Shown in pieces: positions 1-25,205 of a DNA stretch of 64,000 nt. Source of the stretch: Picochlorum sp. 'celeri' (Eukaryota > Chlorophyta > Trebouxiophyceae); NCBI GenBank assembly GCA_010909725.1, contig JAACMV010000030.1, forward strand, positions 62,001 to 126,000, written 5' to 3'. The position numbers were made by a program, and so were the translations under genes. Position 1 is the stretch's first letter. Every line of letters starts with the position of its first letter. A model generated the notes under the pieces. It worked only from the letters and a program-made list of their open reading frames with translations, was not told the DNA's origin and ran no database searches.

Positions 1-1214
1 AGATCACTACTGCTGTGTCCAAAGTCGTTGTCATCTCCCCACACTTCCGAGCCATCATCTTTGCCTCTCGCTAAATCATCATATTCCTCCCAAGGACGTT
101 GCGGTGCGGTCTCATCTTGGTTGGCAGTAGCGGGCCCATCCCCTGGTGGCACAGACTCCTGATCAGCAGAAGCTGATGGAATTGGCATTGGCATTGGCAT
201 GGGTGGGTGTATCATCGGAGACAGGATTCCAGATCCATACGAATGCCTGGAGAAGTAATCATAATCAATCGATATAGCTGCAGCAAGGGCGACCATTCTC
301 TCGTCCACCTGAAGGGGAGATTTGACCAAGAGCTGGTTCCCACTCGTGCATGGAATGACAGCCTTTGTATCAGGGCCTAACGCGGCTTCGGGAGCTTTCA
401 GCGTTTGCTCCGGGTACGCATTATCTAATGATCTCTGTATGAACTGGGACGCCTGTCGGGGAGTCTCGCCGAAATGGATTGCATATTTTCCTGCATCTGT
501 GAAAATTTCCTTGCCAAATCCGGAAAAGTTCCGGTCGATGAGAGCCAATGGGCTTCCGGACTCGTCCGTCATGAGAAACTCCCAGGCTAATATTGAGGCA
601 TCTATTCGGGCAAACTGCGTGCGATCGATGAATAAATTGTACCTCCTTCGCAATAGATGCCATTCCTGCTGGACTTCTCCAATCACAGCATCATCTGCAT
701 CTTCTATGAGCATCGTCGATGAAATCAAATACGGAGGCCTCCTCAATTTAAAGAGTATTTCAGATCCTGTGCTGTTAAATACTGTGGCGGTGAAACCCCT
801 CCGAGTCCTGAACAACTGCCTCATAAACACACGCCCCAAGCCACCATGCTCCTCTGCAAGAAGGGCTACTACTTGCCCTGTCTCGTCCCTAATGCTATAT
901 TTATTCGCTTGCTCATACCCTAAAAGAACTTGACCCCACTCTACATCACGCGTGACGATCAGTGATGATCGATTGACCAGCGTAAGGGCAGACTCTGGAG
1001 CCTCTTCTTTTCTATTCACTCCATAAACCTGCCGCTGAAGCCCTTTTTTCTCATTCGCTCTCACTAATTTGCGAACTTTGCTCCGCGACTTTGATGCAAA
1101 GCCATTTTGAAACAGATTGGTTTGGTAAATACCCTCAAGAGAGTCTGGAACATGCTTCCACGTGGATTCAAAAGAAAAGATCCTTCTTACAACAGGTCGC
1201 AGTCTGTTCGACAT
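1..1214 (-). CDS. Phospholipid scramblase family protein (AIM25-like), C-terminus cut by window edge
   Basis: Reading the minus strand from the ATG at 1214 gives one open frame of 404 codons that runs off base 1, so the 3' end is missing. The core reads like the scramblase family: EVQQEWHLLRRRYNLFID, then LALIDRNFSGFGKEIFTDAG and the KYAIHFGE beta-strand, then a conserved VDERMVALAAAISIDYDYFS helix. Plant and fungal relatives (AIM25 type) are mitochondrial or membrane-associated lipid scramblases; transport is inferred from family only. The N-terminus is basic (SNRLRPVVRRIF) and could be an organelle-targeting peptide. The tail after residue about 330 is Pro/Met-rich (a PMPMPMP run), then acidic. 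No intron is seen. It follows the EMB8-like gene on the same strand with a 49-base gap. Confidence 0.82.
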   Translation of the reverse strand, partial: MSNRLRPVVRRIFSFESTWKHVPDSLEGIYQTNLFQNGFASKSRSKVRKLVRANEKKGLQRQVYGVNRKEEAPESALTLVNRSSLIVTRDVEWGQVLLGYEQANKYSIRDETGQVVALLAEEHGGLGRVFMRQLFRTRRGFTATVFNSTGSEILFKLRRPPYLISSTMLIEDADDAVIGEVQQEWHLLRRRYNLFIDRTQFARIDASILAWEFLMTDESGSPLALIDRNFSGFGKEIFTDAGKYAIHFGETPRQASQFIQRSLDNAYPEQTLKAPEAALGPDTKAVIPCTSGNQLLVKSPLQVDERMVALAAAISIDYDYFSRHSYGSGILSPMIHPPMPMPMPIPSASADQESVPPGDGPATANQDETAPQRPWEEYDDLARGKDDGSEVWGDDNDFGHSSSD

Positions 1215-1263
1215 ACTATCAACAGCGGCCACGTATCCTTCATACAGTATATATTAAATTAAA

Positions 1264-2546: not shown

Positions 2547-5500
2547 CTAATACCGAGGTGGGGCAGCATTATTTTCACTCAGGCTCATGGCAATTGCCAA
2601 GTCAAGGTCATCGTCCACTGGAGTCATGGTGATGGGCTGACGAGTTTCTCTTTTAGAAGCTTCAATGGCTCTCCTGAGTTCTGCATCATCCTCGCCTCTA
2701 GGCTGATTATATCTATTCAATGCTGCTGCTTGGGCTGCTACGGGGTCTTGTGGAATGTCAACTGCCCCTGCAAATGGACGAGCACCAGCAACAGGGTAGC
2801 TTGTGCCATTTGTGTACCCGTTGGTGTACCCATTTGTGTAGTGGCTGGAAAATCCATGGCCATTTCCATTTCCATTCATCTGTCCATTGTATTGGTAAGG
2901 ATACATTGCTCCGTTCATGCTGTTGGGGGGAGGCTTTTTCTTTGTTCGGCAGCAACAGCACCAGAGGATGGAGAGCAGCAAAATGCCAACAACACAGCTT
3001 GCAACAATGATCACAATCAAGGCCCATGTGGGAAGTCCGCTGCTGCTACCTTCAAGCTCAAACGTATATGGCGGGGAAGGTTCTCCTTCGTTGCCTGCGG
3101 CATCTACTCCTTTTGCCCTGAAGGTGTATGTTCCTTGGGCAAGGCCAGCATATGTGCAAGAGGTTAGCGAGCAGTTTGCCCATTTTCCCAGGTCGCCCTT
3201 TCCGAGAACATTTTCTTCAGGAGAATCAGATTTGATGGTGTGAGTCATGAGCGATTTCACTGCCGCATCCCCACCAGGGACATCGGCAGTGACTGGTGCT
3301 TGCTCAGCAACAGTGTCAGCATCCAAGGACAGATATCCTTGCCACAGAACAGGAGATCCTCCGTTTTCTATATCTGGATCTGTTATATTGAAGATCACCG
3401 TGCCACCTGGATTCACCTGGTCTTTTGAGGGCCCGGATGTGATGGTTGCAGTGGGCGGTGCGGTATCCATCCATACACGAATGGGCTCTTGGTTTGAGAC
3501 TCTGCCAGCATTGTCTGTTGCTGTGACTGAAATCTGCCATTCTCCCTCTTCCAAATCAAATGTCCACGGGGATTCACAAGGTTTCGGGGCCCACTGCTCA
3601 CTATCTTCTTCTATTTGTTGTCCTACAAGTTGGATGGGCACAACTTGGCATGTCACATTAGCAATGCCAGACCCCTGTGGTCCATCATCTACGGTGAATG
3701 TCACTGTCATTGTTGGCTCCCTCGTGCCTTGTGGATACTCCAAATTGACAACAGGCGAATCGAGATCCACAATGAAATCAAAGGTAGTGCTGTTGCCTCG
3801 GTTGCCCACCGGGTCTGTTGCCGCGACCTCAAGAACATACCGACCTCCTGTCAAGTTCCTAAACTGCACTGGCCCCACACAAGGAGCCCAGTCCATACTA
3901 TCATTGGTAGAGTCTATTCCAACTAATTTGCACTGAGTCTTTCCTGGTTCCGAGAGTTCAAATTGAAAAGTAGCAACAGAAGTGGAAAATATACTTGGGC
4001 TTCCCACAATATTGACAGTGGGAGCAATTTCATCAACTGTGAAAGTCGACAGTGCAGCACTCTCAACGGGTGCCCCAATGATGCGAGCAAAGAATGTATA
4101 TTTCCCATCATCAATCAATCCATATTCCTGATATCCTGTGCAAGCTTCCCATTGCTGTGGGACGCCTGGATTCTCCAAGTCAGTGGGCCACCGAACCAGC
4201 GAGCATTCCAACTGCTGGCTCACTTCTTGAGTTCCAGCCACCAAGCTCACTGTTTTGAAGGAAACTTCAGATTTTGGGATCGTCATGAAAGGCCCGTCTT
4301 GAATATAAACGACAGGATAGGTTGTGTCCGTTGGAATATTGATCGGGTTTTCCGACAGAGGACTGGTGTTACCAGCCTGATCGATGGCCTTGATAACAAA
4401 GTTCCACTGTCCTGGCAGCATCCAGCCTACTGTAACACCATCTGAGCAATTGAACCACTGGTTGAGAACGATTGGAGAGGCAACAACTTCTCCTCCTGAG
4501 ACCCGTCCTTGACTGCCGGATAAATTTTCTCCCGTGAGCATGCATTGTGTGAAAACTTCAGTCAGATCTTCTGTACTGATTCGGAATTTTGCACTGCCCC
4601 TTGGGACTTCTGCTGGAGTGGTCTCTAGAATGGGTGGCGTTTTGTCCACAACAAAAATTCGATTCGCCACTGAGTTTTCGTTCACTGGTCGGACGCTAAA
4701 CGAATATTCTCCATCATTAAGACCTTGATATGACTGAGGCGAGGTGCAGGGGCCCCAAGGTTGATCTACCACAGATCCATCCTGCACGATCTCCAACTTG
4801 CACTCAAACGATGCTCCGTTAGAAACCCCTGTTCCCAGGCCAAACTCAAAGGTGACAACATCTTCGTTTGTCAAAGGCGGTGGTCCACTGAGAATGTTGG
4901 CAGATATGACTGGGCACTCAGCAGAGCCCTCGGATGGTGATATAATGGTACCTTCGAAATCGCCAATGACAGCTATGGCATACGGCTGTGGACCATAGTT
5001 TTGAGAGTATATTCCCGCACCAAAAACCTCAATCGATACTCTTCCAGCAGGAAGATACGAGAATCTGACCTGTTCCACATTATTCACTGTATCAGGTTTG
5101 GTTGAGTCGTCAATGTCCCCTCCATTCCCAAGAATCGGGATACCGTTGTAACCTTCGCTTCGAACAACCAAATCAATGTTATTCACAAGTGATTTCGGAG
5201 CGCTTGGATTTCCTGGTAAATCTGTCCATGCTACTGTGATGGACAGAGGCCCTCCTGTAGATCTGATGCAATACAAATGTTTATCCCCATCTGTTATATC
5301 CACAGAATCTAGTACCTGGAATCCCTTTGGATTGTATGGATTGTTTTCAACCTTCAAGGAGCCACCCAAATAAACACGTCCATAGCCTTGCCGGAACGAT
5401 GGTGCTGGATCAATGGGCAGTCCTGTATCTGCCTCATACCCTCCTATTTGTTTGGCCCCACCCATCATCACTGCTTTGACCAGCGCAGAAGTAGGCATAA

Positions 5501-7950
5501 AACCATTTTCTGCCACAGGAAATCCTCCTGGATAAAATCCATCCTTAAAGTATTGCTGGACCAAAACAGCATTTCCTGCAGCAACAGGTGTGGCCATTGA
5601 GGTGCCTGCAAATATGGAGGTACTGCAGCTAGTGCCAGCTTTTGCTGATGCGACAATGCCTGGGGCAAGAATATCTGGCTTAACTCGTCTGTCTGGCTGC
5701 ACAGGTCCTTGTGACGAAAACTCTGCCAAATTCTCGTAGCCAATGTCACCCTTGGGGGACGGCCCAAATGAGATGGAGAGAGACTGCCCAGAGTTAATTT
5801 CGGCAATCAGATTCTGTCCGATTCGTCTAGGAATAAATCCAGTAGGAATATTCACTGTTCCTCCAGATGTATCTGGTATGAAATATGCCCCTGCGACGTT
5901 GTCATAAATGATGGCACCTGCTGCTCCTGCCAACTGGGCATTTTGAGCCTTTTCCACAAATTCACAAGTTCCTCGCTCAATCAGCGCAATCTTGCCGATG
6001 ACATCGCCCGAATTTTGAAAAGAAGAGCATCCATCCAATGGATTAGATATCACCAATGCATACTGAGAATTGGTCAACTCGTCAAATCCAGGGCTGAATG
6101 ACGACAGTAGAACTGGGAAACTGTACCCTGCAACCCCGTTAATTTGAATGCTCGCGGTATACGTAGTAAATACACCAATGTTTTGAGCCGTTGTTCCCGT
6201 GGTCTGAGTAGCCCCAACTGCCATGCAATTCTTGGCTGTTGCAGGCGAATTCACAGTTGATGTGCCACTGTTGCCATTGTATGTTGCCCGATCACCATCA
6301 TTTCCAGCTGGGAACACGGGCAAAAAAGTGGGATTTTCCCAACAGAAGGCATCGATTTGTAAAGCCTCATAATCATAATAAATGCTAGTAGAGCCCCACG
6401 AGTCAGAGTGAACAGTTGCTCCCACATCTGTTGTATATTTAAAGTATTGGTTTGCCAAATCCCTCGGGGTCACAATGCGGTCCCCATCTCGAGCAGACGA
6501 TAGATCTGCAACGAAACATCATGTTATATATTAATGTGAATGCATAGATGAGAAATCAATATCAAGTAATCAACATACCTACAAACGCCAGCTTTGCATC
6601 TGGGGCCATGCCGATATTCTCGCCACTTGTCTCTGCAAGAGTATTCCCATATGGAATGCCTGCCAAAGTTCCACACGTATGAGTACCGTGGCCGTTATCA
6701 TCTCGGAAGTCAGCAAACGCTCTATATAGCCTAATTTTTCGATGCGTCGTCGAGGTGAACGTCAACACGTTGTCATCTGTGATAATGTTTGCTGACCAGT
6801 CTGTATCAGGGTCAGCAAAGAAACAATGCTGGTAATCTAATCCACTGTCTCCAATTCCCACGACCATATCCTTTCCAGTAATACCTGCACTCCATATTGG
6901 GTGGTATTCTGGGTCGGTGTTGATGATCCCGGACAGCGGTGCAGGACGACCCGACTGCGTAATTGTCGATGCTTGCCTGTTCAACATTCTCACTCGTGGC
7001 ATGGGCTCCACCCAGTGCACCGCATGGCGTTCAGCCAGCCAATCGATCGCATTTTGAATCTGATTTCCTGGTACATAAACCGTCACAGCATGCTTTCCAT
7101 TGTCCTGGATGTGTGCAACTGGGAATGCCTCTTCCAATGCATCCCTCCAGTCCTTCACAGCAGCAATCCCGCCATGATACCCTGTGGCTATCTTCTTCTC
7201 CCACCTATGGATTCGTCCGTTTTGAATGTCATGTCTGTCATGTTGGTGGTGATGCGGTCTCGGCTTCTGTTGCATCGGGAACAGAGCTCTCACACCGAAC
7301 AGTGCCTCGCCACCCTCCGAATACAGCACATCAATAGGAAGATGCTCATACCCCCTCATGGTGATGTTCTTCGCATGCACATTCGCCAACCTTTCCTCAA
7401 CTGCTTGCATCACTCGTTTCCACTCCGGCGCAATCTTGTGCCCAGCTTGATATGGAACAGACCACTGGACATCCTCGTGTCCCAGTGCCCGCTCCAGTGC
7501 CTCGTGTGGACCCACAACAAGCATGCTACCATTCCCGAAATACCCGGATACGTGGCATCCATGCCTCTCTATATGATCAATAAGCTGATCGCTGTGGCGA
7601 TGGAACCCTACGAGAGCCTGTTTCGCATGCTGCAGCCAACCCCATTCCGTGGAACGCGTCTTGACCTTGTCCAGGCCCAAGCCTGTCGTACCGCGTTCGG
7701 CTCTCAACATGGCCAGCCTCCTCCTCTCCCGTCCATTCAAGCTACTTCTATCGTTAATTATCCCATTCGTAAAATAATTCGTTCTCTCTGATCCCTTGGG
7801 GACATAGACGGGCCCACTTCGTAATTCCAACAGAACGGACTGGTCAAAGCCAAGGGCAGTTGCACCACCATCTATTAGGCCAAAGGACCCAACTATGCTC
7901 CCAAGAGAAACAATGGACAGTATAAATAAAAGTAATACCATGTGTCCCAT
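2547..7950 (-). CDS. Giant single-pass membrane subtilase (S8) with PA insert, Ig-like repeats and ubiquitin-binding tail
   Basis: Two exons, 7950-6579 and 6505-2547, with a 73-base intron; the joined protein is 1776 residues and the junction reads AFVDLSSARDGD. A hydrophobic signal sequence (about 4-24) is followed by a propeptide-like region and an S8 domain with Asp368 (GIGDSGLD), His421 (DNGHGTHTCGT), oxyanion Asn526 (PAGNDGD) and Ser760 (FAGTSMATP), so the triad is intact. A PA domain interrupts the protease domain at about 600-700. Then come about five Ig-like modules, several containing a W..C...Y.GL.DG.Y motif. A transmembrane helix (about 1618-1639), CCCC and basic residues lead to a cytosolic tail with YTNG repeats, two UIM-like helices (about 1729-1745 and 1755-1770) and a terminal PPRY. 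The ectodomain probably cleaves proteins outside the cell or in the secretory pathway; the tail suggests ubiquitin-dependent sorting (inference). Confidence 0.9.
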
Positions 7951-22982: not shown

Positions 22983-25205
22983 TTACAGTTCATCGTCTTT
23001 TGTCGAATCCATTTTTGGTGATCCACTGTTATCTGACGGTATGGAGTCTGATTCACTTTCTGGAGTTGTTGGTTGGCGCTTCCTTCTTCTAGTCACCATC
23101 ACCACGACTGCTGCAATAATGGCAATTGCTGCCACACCTCCGATTGCAATACCAACTATAGCTCCTGTCGAAAGGCCAGAGCCCCCGTCAGATGATGCAG
23201 TATCTGATGTACTATCAGTGGCTGCTTGTGGTGTGGTCAGTCTCTCTGATCCTTCAGATGCACCGTTCTCAGCAGGATCAGGAATTGAATTTGTATCAAC
23301 ATCCATCGTCACTCCATCTTCTATCACTCGTATTACTGGTGGGCTGATCTCCTGGATCTGGAATGCTTTGAGTTCCTTTGTGTTGAAATCTGATTCCATT
23401 GAGAGGTCTCGTGTGTAATTGGCAAATGCTCCCAAAGGACTTGGGTTTGTTACTGTCAGCTCCACTTCCACCTGTGGCTCTGCTTGCAGGAGCATCCTTC
23501 GGAGGCCTGCAGCAGAATTCAGAGATGTGATGTTCACCACACGTATATCTGCTGCTGTCACATCAATCGCTCTTGCCACCGTTGCTTTGAAAGGTTCCAA
23601 GAGATCCGTTTGTAACTCTGTTTTTGTACGTCCTTGAAGCTTCAGATTGATTCGAAGCCCTGTGGATGGGGGGTCGGGGTCATCTACTCCTGCAGAGGGG
23701 CCCAGAATAACAGGTCTAGCCTCATTGACCACATCCGGGCAATTGTCCTGGTATGGAGGGATCCTCAAAGTCACTCCTGGGCTTAAGATGTCCCCAGGAA
23801 CATCCGTATTTGCTCCTCTCAAGTCTTCAAGTTTGACTTGATATGACTTCGCAATGGATTCCCAAGTGTCACCTGGAATAATGTTGTGCAAGGTACATTC
23901 AAACTTTTCTGTTGTACCCTCTGTGTCACTAGGTGCCTGGGTCACTTGACCTGGCCCTGTGACAGGTTTGATCGCATCTCCAATGCAATCATCACCCCAC
24001 GGAGGAATACGAACTTTCTCTCCGACGGTTAACACAGAACCGTCTCCAATTTCTGGATTGACATCAAGGAATTCGTCTGTAAGGACGGCAAACTTGGTTG
24101 CCACCAAGTATGATGTGTCAGAAGGCTGGACAGTATACTGTTGACATCTCACATCTCCCATAGGAGCAGTAAGGTCCACTGGATTGCATTTTAGCCATTC
24201 TCCCATCTTGGATGCAGGTACAGGATCTTTCATCCACTCAATCAGCTGTCGAGTTGTGATTGCCCACACATCCGGCTGGGCCATGGCATAGTCCATAAAT
24301 TGATTCAGAGCTTCTGTATTCTTGTCAGTAAACCAAGGGGCGTGGAGGAAAATACCGAAAGGAGCTCTGTTGTTCAGATAATTCATGTCAAAGTTCTCCT
24401 TGAATATGGAGAAGACATCTCCTTCAGGATCCATGGAAAACAAATGGTCTCCCGCCGCATTCTGGAGCTCCCACAAGGGAACCTCCCAGACTCCAGGATA
24501 TCTTTCAGAAGTTCTGTTGCATTGTCCATCTGGGTAATTCCAGTTGCAGTCAATTGGTATCCCGTAGTCCATTGTGAATGGCCACACCCGCTCACCTGGG
24601 ACAGTCTGTACCTCACTATCAGGAGAAAACACACTGATCATCGACGAGTCGTATAACATTCCTTCTTTCTGAATTTGGCTTCTCGTTTGGGGATTGTGAA
24701 GTAAGTATGGGTTGCGATACCCAACCAGGTCCTCAAGAGGTATGCCGCACTCCTCATTGAGCCATTTCCTGACGCCGAACATTTCTTGATCAAGAGCTTT
24801 TTCTCCACCTGGGTAATTCGGAACCAATCTGAAATGGTTCACGGTATGCAAAGCAAATTCTGAGTTCTCGTTCCAGAGCTTTTTCACTGTGGCACAATCT
24901 GATCCTTGCTGAAGTGTGTACCACGTCGCAGGAACATTGCAACCATTTGGATTTGTATGCTTATCAATCACATTCCTCACAACTTTGTTGGAGAATGGAT
25001 TCACCGCATCATCATGCGTGATGAGAATAAACTGCGGTGTATCCTTTGGGGCTAACCCACCTGGCGCAGAATTGGAGGCACACATGCAATCAGGGGCTTT
25101 GCAATTCGCCTCATTGCAATCATACCATTCTGGCATTCCATTTGAAGTGTCCAGACCACTGATGAGCAGTAAAGCGCACAGCGTCAAGAGTCTTCTGGCC
25201 GACAT
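22983..25205 (-). CDS. Membrane-anchored polysaccharide deacetylase (chitin deacetylase-like) with two LysM domains
   Basis: 740 residues, no intron. Signal peptide at 1-23 (RRLLTLCALLLISGL). The carbohydrate esterase 4 domain (about 55-330) has motif 1 FILITHDDAV, motif 2 HTVNHF and motif 3 GYRNPYL, so the catalytic Asp and zinc His residues are present. Two LysM modules follow (about 355-405, ending KVRIPPW; about 435-480, ending LRIPPY), which bind N-acetylglucosamine polymers. A beta-rich region with LRRMLLQ, an acidic Ser/Thr linker, a transmembrane helix (AIVGIAIGGVAAIAIIAAVV) and an RRRKR cytosolic stop complete a type I protein ending KDDEL. It probably deacetylates a chitin-like wall or scale polymer at the cell surface (inference). 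Confidence 0.88.
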   Translation of the reverse strand: MSARRLLTLCALLLISGLDTSNGMPEWYDCNEANCKAPDCMCASNSAPGGLAPKDTPQFILITHDDAVNPFSNKVVRNVIDKHTNPNGCNVPATWYTLQQGSDCATVKKLWNENSEFALHTVNHFRLVPNYPGGEKALDQEMFGVRKWLNEECGIPLEDLVGYRNPYLLHNPQTRSQIQKEGMLYDSSMISVFSPDSEVQTVPGERVWPFTMDYGIPIDCNWNYPDGQCNRTSERYPGVWEVPLWELQNAAGDHLFSMDPEGDVFSIFKENFDMNYLNNRAPFGIFLHAPWFTDKNTEALNQFMDYAMAQPDVWAITTRQLIEWMKDPVPASKMGEWLKCNPVDLTAPMGDVRCQQYTVQPSDTSYLVATKFAVLTDEFLDVNPEIGDGSVLTVGEKVRIPPWGDDCIGDAIKPVTGPGQVTQAPSDTEGTTEKFECTLHNIIPGDTWESIAKSYQVKLEDLRGANTDVPGDILSPGVTLRIPPYQDNCPDVVNEARPVILGPSAGVDDPDPPSTGLRINLKLQGRTKTELQTDLLEPFKATVARAIDVTAADIRVVNITSLNSAAGLRRMLLQAEPQVEVELTVTNPSPLGAFANYTRDLSMESDFNTKELKAFQIQEISPPVIRVIEDGVTMDVDTNSIPDPAENGASEGSERLTTPQAATDSTSDTASSDGGSGLSTGAIVGIAIGGVAAIAIIAAVVVMVTRRRKRQPTTPESESDSIPSDNSGSPKMDSTKDDEL

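Follow-up and report, generated by a model that had tools for sequence, protein, structure and literature searches.

The window analysed here is a 64,000-nucleotide stretch of the green alga Picochlorum sp. 'celeri' (contig JAACMV010000030.1, positions 62,001 to 126,000 of the forward strand). Its minus strand was found to hold, at 7950..2547, one subtilase gene of two exons that is read in a single frame into a product of 1776 residues. The product has the intact catalytic residues of peptidase family S8, an ectodomain with a PA domain and Ig-like repeats, one C-terminal helix predicted to lie in the membrane and, behind it, a tail with candidate ubiquitin-interacting motifs (UIMs), the signature of which is the sole strictly conserved feature of 21 aligned tails of the family. 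We propose that this type I green-algal membrane subtilase may use its cytosolic tail as a ubiquitin receptor, and that ubiquitin would gather the protease with tagged membrane proteins on the route of the endosome and the endosomal sorting complex required for transport (ESCRT). We judge the chances for and against this proposal to be about equal.

Ubiquitin-interacting motifs in the tail

A preliminary description made from the letters of the window had placed two UIM-like motifs in the tail, and both were recovered as putative UIMs. When the last 167 residues were scanned against Pfam, the UIM model PF02809 scored 23.4 bits and UIM_2 scored 19.7, each with a cut-off of 21. The two motifs, EDDAELRRAIEASKRE and DDDLDLAIAMSLSEN, have the acidic patch and the hydrophobic, alanine and serine core which, together with the profile match, make them UIMs as judged by sequence. 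Upstream of them, DPVAAQAAALNRY is probably the remnant of a decayed first UIM, and DPIEAQELALALAAS occupies its position in the aligned tails of relatives P0015 and P0020. The window tail searched by itself against the Protein Data Bank (PDB) gave six matches at E<=10, with S5a as the best (7.4e-4) followed by four more UIM proteins and one designed repeat protein. A single-sequence structure model has helices at the membrane segment and at both UIMs, the UIMs being of low confidence (mean predicted local distance difference test, pLDDT, 58). The spacing from alanine to alanine is 24 residues in the window protein and 13 to 100 between motifs across the family (overlapping registers aside), and a chain-type reading of the spacing was dropped for this variation.

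Conservation of the tail in the family

The protein searches returned 10 proteins, 490 at E<=1e-3 (best 120 listed) and 58 at E<=1e-30; in the two larger ones scoring was confined to the 7993 candidates that had the most words in common with the query. The set used here consists of the window protein and 53 matches (P0001-P0052 and P0121), where 38 proteins reach a tail after the C-terminal helix and 16 do not. P0040 was removed by hand before the tails were counted because its best hydrophobic stretch is not C-terminal. At under 70% ectodomain identity the 38 tails are reduced to 23 non-redundant ones. The family shares the same layout, and its named members come from the green algae Micractinium, Coccomyxa, Nannochloris, Bryopsis and Tetraselmis. 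The named tails span Picochlorum, Micractinium, Coccomyxa and Bryopsis, and those family members that have a name in the databases are called after the protease part or hypothetical.

Of the 23 non-redundant tails, 21 have at least one UIM core, whereas 2000 composition-keeping shuffles gave on average 1.3 such tails and at most 6. The 23 tails hold 52 core motifs (overlapping registers counted) where the shuffled mean was 1.36 and the maximum in 2000 rounds was 7, and a stricter pattern with flanking acidic residues was found in 20 tails with a shuffled mean of 0.03 motifs in all. Chance as the origin of the motifs is ruled out by these shuffles. The cores are also concentrated in the tails, with 52 per 3576 tail residues versus 16 per 36335 ectodomain residues of the same 23 proteins, and only three of 99 other search matches have a core in their last 150 residues. 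The preliminary description had let its reading stand or fall with the conservation of a UIM/PPRY segment in orthologs. The UIM part is kept in these 21 of 23 tails, among them those of relatives with only about 33-45% identity over the matched part, and the PPRY part is not, as described below.

The 21 UIM tails were aligned over 348 columns, with a mean identity of 21%. The sole invariant positions are columns 204 (Ala) and 208 (Ser), and both belong to one UIM. P0051 and P0052, which have zinc-finger tails, were excluded from the alignment, and the invariant columns and the profile built for the PDB comparison concern the 21 other tails. This profile gave 17 matches at E<=1 among 177,635 distinct PDB sequences, all of them UIM proteins by title; that a UIM is present in each of the 17 we presume from the titles and general knowledge. 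The best match is the tandem UIM of Vps27 (1q0v, 3e-7), and the others include RAP80, S5a/RPN10, ataxin-3, USP25, USP28, ZFAND2B, STAM2 and an entry named 'VWFA domain-containing protein', which was taken for RPN10. It is hard to believe, therefore, that the motif is an acidic amphipathic helix with some other, non-ubiquitin role: UIM-like cores arise more easily in the Ala-rich tails of some relatives (P0043, P0044), but the composition-keeping shuffles and the UIM-only PDB list both argue against such a helix.

In addition, NPF motifs were noticed near the C terminus, beside the UIMs, in six of the 38 tails (P0015-P0017, P0019, P0021 and P0121). NPF is a ligand of endocytic EH domains, and its pairing with UIMs occurs in endocytic adaptors such as epsin.

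Several observations weigh against reading the tail as a ubiquitin receptor. With the tails scanned singly, PF02809 was found at E<=0.01 in only 12 of the 21 tails and UIM_2 in six, the number and spacing of the UIMs differ among tails, and the precomputed Pfam lists of the relatives show no UIM. The whole 1323-residue product of exon 2 scores 17.0 for UIM, under the cut-off of 21, so routine annotation would miss the motif. The subtilase also stays below the cut-off in a six-frame search of the genome (17.3 and 16.6), where it is outscored by what is probably a chance match in an amine-oxidase/CMAS protein (19.1 bits), whose own Pfam scan shows no UIM. The Tetraselmis transcript P0047 and the Nannochloris model P0037 are without helix or tail and are perhaps cut short. 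Furthermore, P0051 and P0052 have the same ectodomain layout with tails of three C2H2 fingers each instead of UIMs. The best Pfam models for these fingers are zf-C2H2_4 and zf-C2H2, with Di19 weaker, and the model of the ubiquitin-binding finger UBZ was not among the Pfam models listed for the two proteins, which were general C2H2 and Di19 instead. An aspartate two residues past the first zinc histidine was seen by eye in four of the six fingers, a feature that makes a UBZ-type, ubiquitin-binding role of the fingers an attractive idea. The tail of P0051 gave only weak PDB matches, to CTCF (0.023), Helios (0.097), DNA polymerase kappa (0.4) and KCMF1 (0.8).

The protease domain and the topology of the protein

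The preliminary description had assigned the ectodomain to the S8 proteases with an intact triad, and this assignment holds. The Peptidase_S8 model (PF00082) is above cut-off in both exons, and D368, H421 and S760 were located together with N526. The product belongs to peptidase family S8 by this profile match and by the Asp-His-Ser triad in family motifs. Ig-like repeats (Big_13 and others) are also above the Pfam cut-off. Among solved S8 sequences, those closest to relative P0002 are 1wmd (3.5e-33) and SubHal 5fax, followed by the C5a peptidases. The entry 1wmd is presumably KP-43. In the S8 domain of this relative the family is thus nearest to the subtilases of the KP-43 and C5a-peptidase type; those enzymes are bacterial, and we know of no UIM tail in this type. 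Furin and kexin, subtilases of type I that carry sorting signals in their cytosolic tails, would resemble the window protein in this respect; to our knowledge furin has no UIM. The P-domain PF01483, the mark of the furin/kexin group S8B, is absent from the Pfam lists of the product up to E 10, and the protein was therefore not placed in S8B.

Only two hydrophobic stretches are present in the product, one at the N terminus and one at residues 1611-1646, and the tail that follows the helix has 138 residues. The N terminus of the window protein is hydrophobic, as are those of many full-length relatives; in some the values are low. The first 20 tail residues carry net positive charge in all 38 tails, many of which begin with two to four cysteines. 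The hydrophobic N terminus, the absence of a third stretch and the basic start of the tail therefore fit a type I protein, with the ectodomain presumably outer or luminal and the tail cytosolic. The earlier proposal of one membrane helix linking the protease to the tail agrees with the single C-terminal helix predicted from hydropathy, the sidedness being deduced as above.

Proposed role of the tail

In the mechanism that we propose, the UIMs would bind the ubiquitin that other membrane proteins, or machinery that travels with these, carry on the cytosolic side. In this way the protease would come together with membrane proteins marked by ubiquitin, either at the plasma membrane or on endosomes, and would enter the ESCRT route in their company. 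The outer or luminal catalytic domain would then cut the ectodomains of its neighbours, or vesicle and wall proteins, and cytosolic ubiquitin would thereby choose where, and partly on what, a protease outside the cytosol acts. In the membrane protease RHBDL4, a change of the UIM weakens client capture (PMC10920636). By analogy with the RHBDL4 UIM, the algal tail would bring an outer or luminal subtilase to ubiquitin-marked membrane proteins. We put forward only tentatively, as the less probable outcome, the wider suggestion that ubiquitin-guided ectodomain proteolysis belongs to an old chlorophyte enzyme class, in which cytosolic ubiquitin selects a membrane protein for outer or luminal cutting and the readers have been swapped for zinc fingers in P0051 and P0052.

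Alternatively, the UIMs may serve only to route the protease itself to multivesicular bodies, to the vacuole or into vesicles that are shed, with no choice of substrate; digestion of the mother wall when autospores are released would be one use of such routing. The hatching subtilase VLE1 of Chlamydomonas exits in ciliary ectosomes, and the sorting to ectosomes appears to involve ESCRT and/or protein modification (PMC6313938, PMC10886904), which speaks for such a role; VLE1, however, is a type II protein with an N-terminal helix and so another protein design (PMC6313938). The closest match of the tail profile, Vps27 of ESCRT-0, and the NPF motifs of six tails point in the same direction as the ectosomes. 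Two points count against own traffic as the only role, which we consider possible though not the likely answer: soluble ubiquitin receptors normally sort membrane cargo, which would need none built in, and Picochlorum is not known to have cilia. It is improbable that the UIMs work in cis, favouring monoubiquitination and turnover of the protease that bears them and in this way limiting its surface activity. Coupled monoubiquitination is a property of the endocytic UIM proteins epsin, Eps15 and Hrs, and a lysine lies within the first 20 tail residues of 28 of the 38 tails, but lysine is absent from the 15 most conserved columns of the 21-tail alignment and several tails have a single UIM.

The gathering of the protease with tagged proteins has to be weighed against a further point, namely that the present results do not tell capture of substrates from sorting of the protease itself. 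Ubiquitin-dependent sorting, one of the ideas of the preliminary description, is plausible, and the case for it is no stronger than that for ubiquitin-guided capture of substrates.

The terminal PPRY motif

The preliminary description had further suggested that the PPRY at the end of the tail recruits a WW-HECT ligase of the Nedd4 type, by which the tail would couple surface proteolysis to the ligase. The motif exists in the window tail, and PPxY was found weakly above chance, in four of 23 tails where shuffling gave a mean of 0.86 and about 1% of rounds reached four; it has no fixed place. The closest relative P0001, which is 91% identical in the tail, reads PRRY instead, further tails end differently, and another PPxY occurs in mid-tail in P0015-P0017, P0019-P0021 and P0039. 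HECT matches were found in at least five genes per haplotype and WW matches in at least 11 reading frames of one haplotype; these counts were made exon by exon from lists of best candidates, and a WW split by an intron could escape. No WW was observed near a HECT among the genome matches listed, where the closest pair is 28.5 kb apart, on contig C14. Of the 11 WW frames, eight were scanned; they have KH, CCHC (weak), PH, FF, CobW, cap-methyltransferase or CCCH domains, or WW alone, and none has HECT; the two scanned of five HECT frames have HECT alone and no WW. With the PPRY not conserved and no gene pairing WW with HECT among the genome matches, a Nedd4-type ligand was not recognised in this tail and the Nedd4 coupling was rejected as extremely improbable. 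No paper on a Nedd4-type WW-HECT ligase in green algae was found in the open-licence PubMed Central (PMC) literature, and a general absence is thus without the support of a paper.

Two side observations concern these gene classes. A protein with PH and WW domains (L030:511-1590) is a possible WW partner at membranes. One HECT gene lies in pieces with in-frame stops (G000:C8:946301 and C17:958691-959558, with more on C17), which may be introns or a decayed allele.

Gene structure and haplotypes

The features of the gene are collected in Table 1.

Table 1. Features of the subtilase gene and its product; positions are those of the window.
Feature	Position	Strand	Basis
Exon 1: signal-peptide-like N terminus, pro-region, S8 part with Asp and His	6579..7950	-	Pfam, motifs
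Hydrophobic N terminus, residues 1-24, probable signal peptide	7879..7950	-	hydropathy only
Catalytic Asp368 (GDSG)	6847..6849	-	motif
Catalytic His421 (GHGTH)	6688..6690	-	motif
Intron, 73 bases, GTATGT...GCAG, within the catalytic domain	6506..6578	-	sequence only
Exon 2: remaining S8 with the inserted PA domain, Ig-like repeats, the membrane helix, the UIM tail and the TAG stop codon	2547..6505	-	reading frame, Pfam
Oxyanion-hole Asn526	6300..6302	-	motif
PA domain, PF02225, insert in S8 domain, above cut-off	5808..6059	-	Pfam
Catalytic Ser760 (GTSMA)	5598..5600	-	motif
Single C-terminal membrane helix, core residues 1620-1638	2964..3020	-	hydropathy; helix at pLDDT ~95 in model
CCCCRTKKK: Cys cluster (palmitoylation may be possible) and basic stop-transfer patch	2934..2960	-	sequence
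DPVAAQAAALNRY, probably decayed first UIM	2709..2747	-	alignment of tails
UIM1, EDDAELRRAIEASKRE, residues 1729-1744	2646..2693	-	Pfam, alignment, PDB profile
UIM2 as matched by Pfam, DDDLDLAIAMSLSEN, residues 1756-1768, E1768Q in the other haplotype	2571..2615	-	Pfam
Terminal PPRY, residues 1773-1776, not conserved	2550..2561	-	sequence

The intron sits between His421 and Asn526, while Ser760, the Ig-like repeats, the helix and the tail are all in exon 2. Because the intron is inside the catalytic domain and Ser760 shares exon 2 with the tail, the joining of protease and tail does not depend on this intron alone. The D, H and S motifs were found in the same predicted protein in 29 of the 38 tailed proteins (window included), 27 of which have UIM cores; the remaining two are the zinc-finger proteins P0051 and P0052. 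Loss of the tail by splicing is unlikely, since Ser760 and the tail share an exon and the gene models of the relatives, as supplied by their sources, predict both parts in a single protein. The sole named transcript model among the relatives, P0047, has no tail.

The gene is also present in the other haplotype (G000:C4), where 33 of 5404 bases are mismatched. Six amino-acid changes result, a pattern suggestive of constraint. One of the changes, the heterozygous E1768Q (window 2574-2576), alters the last acidic position (Glu) of UIM2 in the G000:C4 copy, and in the UIM search of the genome the C4 copy gave one match versus two for the C30 copy.

Directly downstream of the subtilase, the same minus strand encodes two further proteins (window 6-1253 and 1267-2502), a phospholipid scramblase and an alpha/beta hydrolase. 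Further away, window 22986-25205 (minus) encodes a 740-residue protein that has two LysM domains; a podoplanin-like match at its C terminus, below threshold, may represent a membrane helix.

Other UIM and sorting genes in the genome

The Picochlorum celeri genome is a phased diploid (PMC7225527), and the 27,412,692 bases searched here comprise 30 contigs of both haplotypes. The six-frame UIM search gave 17 matches over both haplotypes, where only an OTU protease and a VWA-UIM protein (RPN10-like) are over the cut-off. The former, a cysteine protease with a UIM at L009:1327-2004, is probably a deubiquitinase. Other matches below the cut-off are more motifs of the RPN10-like protein and weak ones in MCM2 and in a hydrolase; an S33-type alpha/beta hydrolase (L024:427-1662, G000:C15:807784) has a weak UIM-like C terminus at 14.2 bits, below the cut-off. 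Among the 30 S8 matches listed, this gene is the only one with S8 and UIM matches together. The ESCRT-related matches in the genome are VHS and UEV, each at a single place per haplotype, and Snf7 at several places. Canonical ESCRT-0 is missing outside animals and fungi, and plants use TOM1-like proteins (PMC12051064).

Comparison with known systems

RHBDL4, a mammalian rhomboid of the endoplasmic reticulum, is a secretory-pathway membrane protease that has a UIM on its cytosolic side (PMC10920636), an arrangement predicted for the window protein as well. It differs in its rhomboid fold and VCP-binding motif, whereas the window protein is an S8 enzyme in which an ectodomain of 1600 residues is followed by a single C-terminal helix and two putative UIMs, and its Pfam lists hold no rhomboid match. 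The ESCRT-0 protein Vps27/HRS has a tandem UIM and, among solved sequences, comes nearest to the tail profile (1q0v, E 3e-7), but it is a soluble adaptor restricted to opisthokonts (PMC12051064), while the algal UIMs are built into a membrane enzyme; the marks of ESCRT-0 (VHS with FYVE or SH3) are absent from the Pfam lists of the window protein. VLE1/sporangin is likewise a green-algal S8 membrane protease, but by its layout description, on which the comparison was made, it is a type II protein of 1117 residues with the helix at 37-59 (PMC6313938), in contrast to the C-terminal helix found here. The same paper lists Chlamydomonas Cre14.g628800 as type I, with S8 at 837-1103 and SKI-1-like, and Cre03.g190250 (1229 residues, helix 1149-1171), compared by its table entry only, might be closer (PMC6313938).

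No precedent for a subtilase joined to UIMs through a membrane, and no paper on a Picochlorum subtilase, was found in open-licence PMC papers; of those that came up, PMC1779556 deals with other matters and PMC11546751 with RPN10. The term 'ubiquitin-interacting' was not found in the excerpt of a Chlamydomonas protease review (PMC8643629). Subtilases and UIMs are each known, and as far as found in those papers what is new is their joining through a membrane.

The two invariant residues, the Ala and Ser of the UIM, offer a clean target for mutants, and Cas9 and Cre-lox work has been published for this alga (PMC10808502, PMC12301381). Because plants lack canonical ESCRT-0, an ESCRT-0-like tandem UIM on a membrane enzyme is of interest for the question of how membrane proteins marked by ubiquitin are sorted or pruned in green algae. 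If the proposal is true, the protein would be a direct physical link from cytosolic ubiquitin signalling to proteolysis across a membrane, kept in distant green algae.

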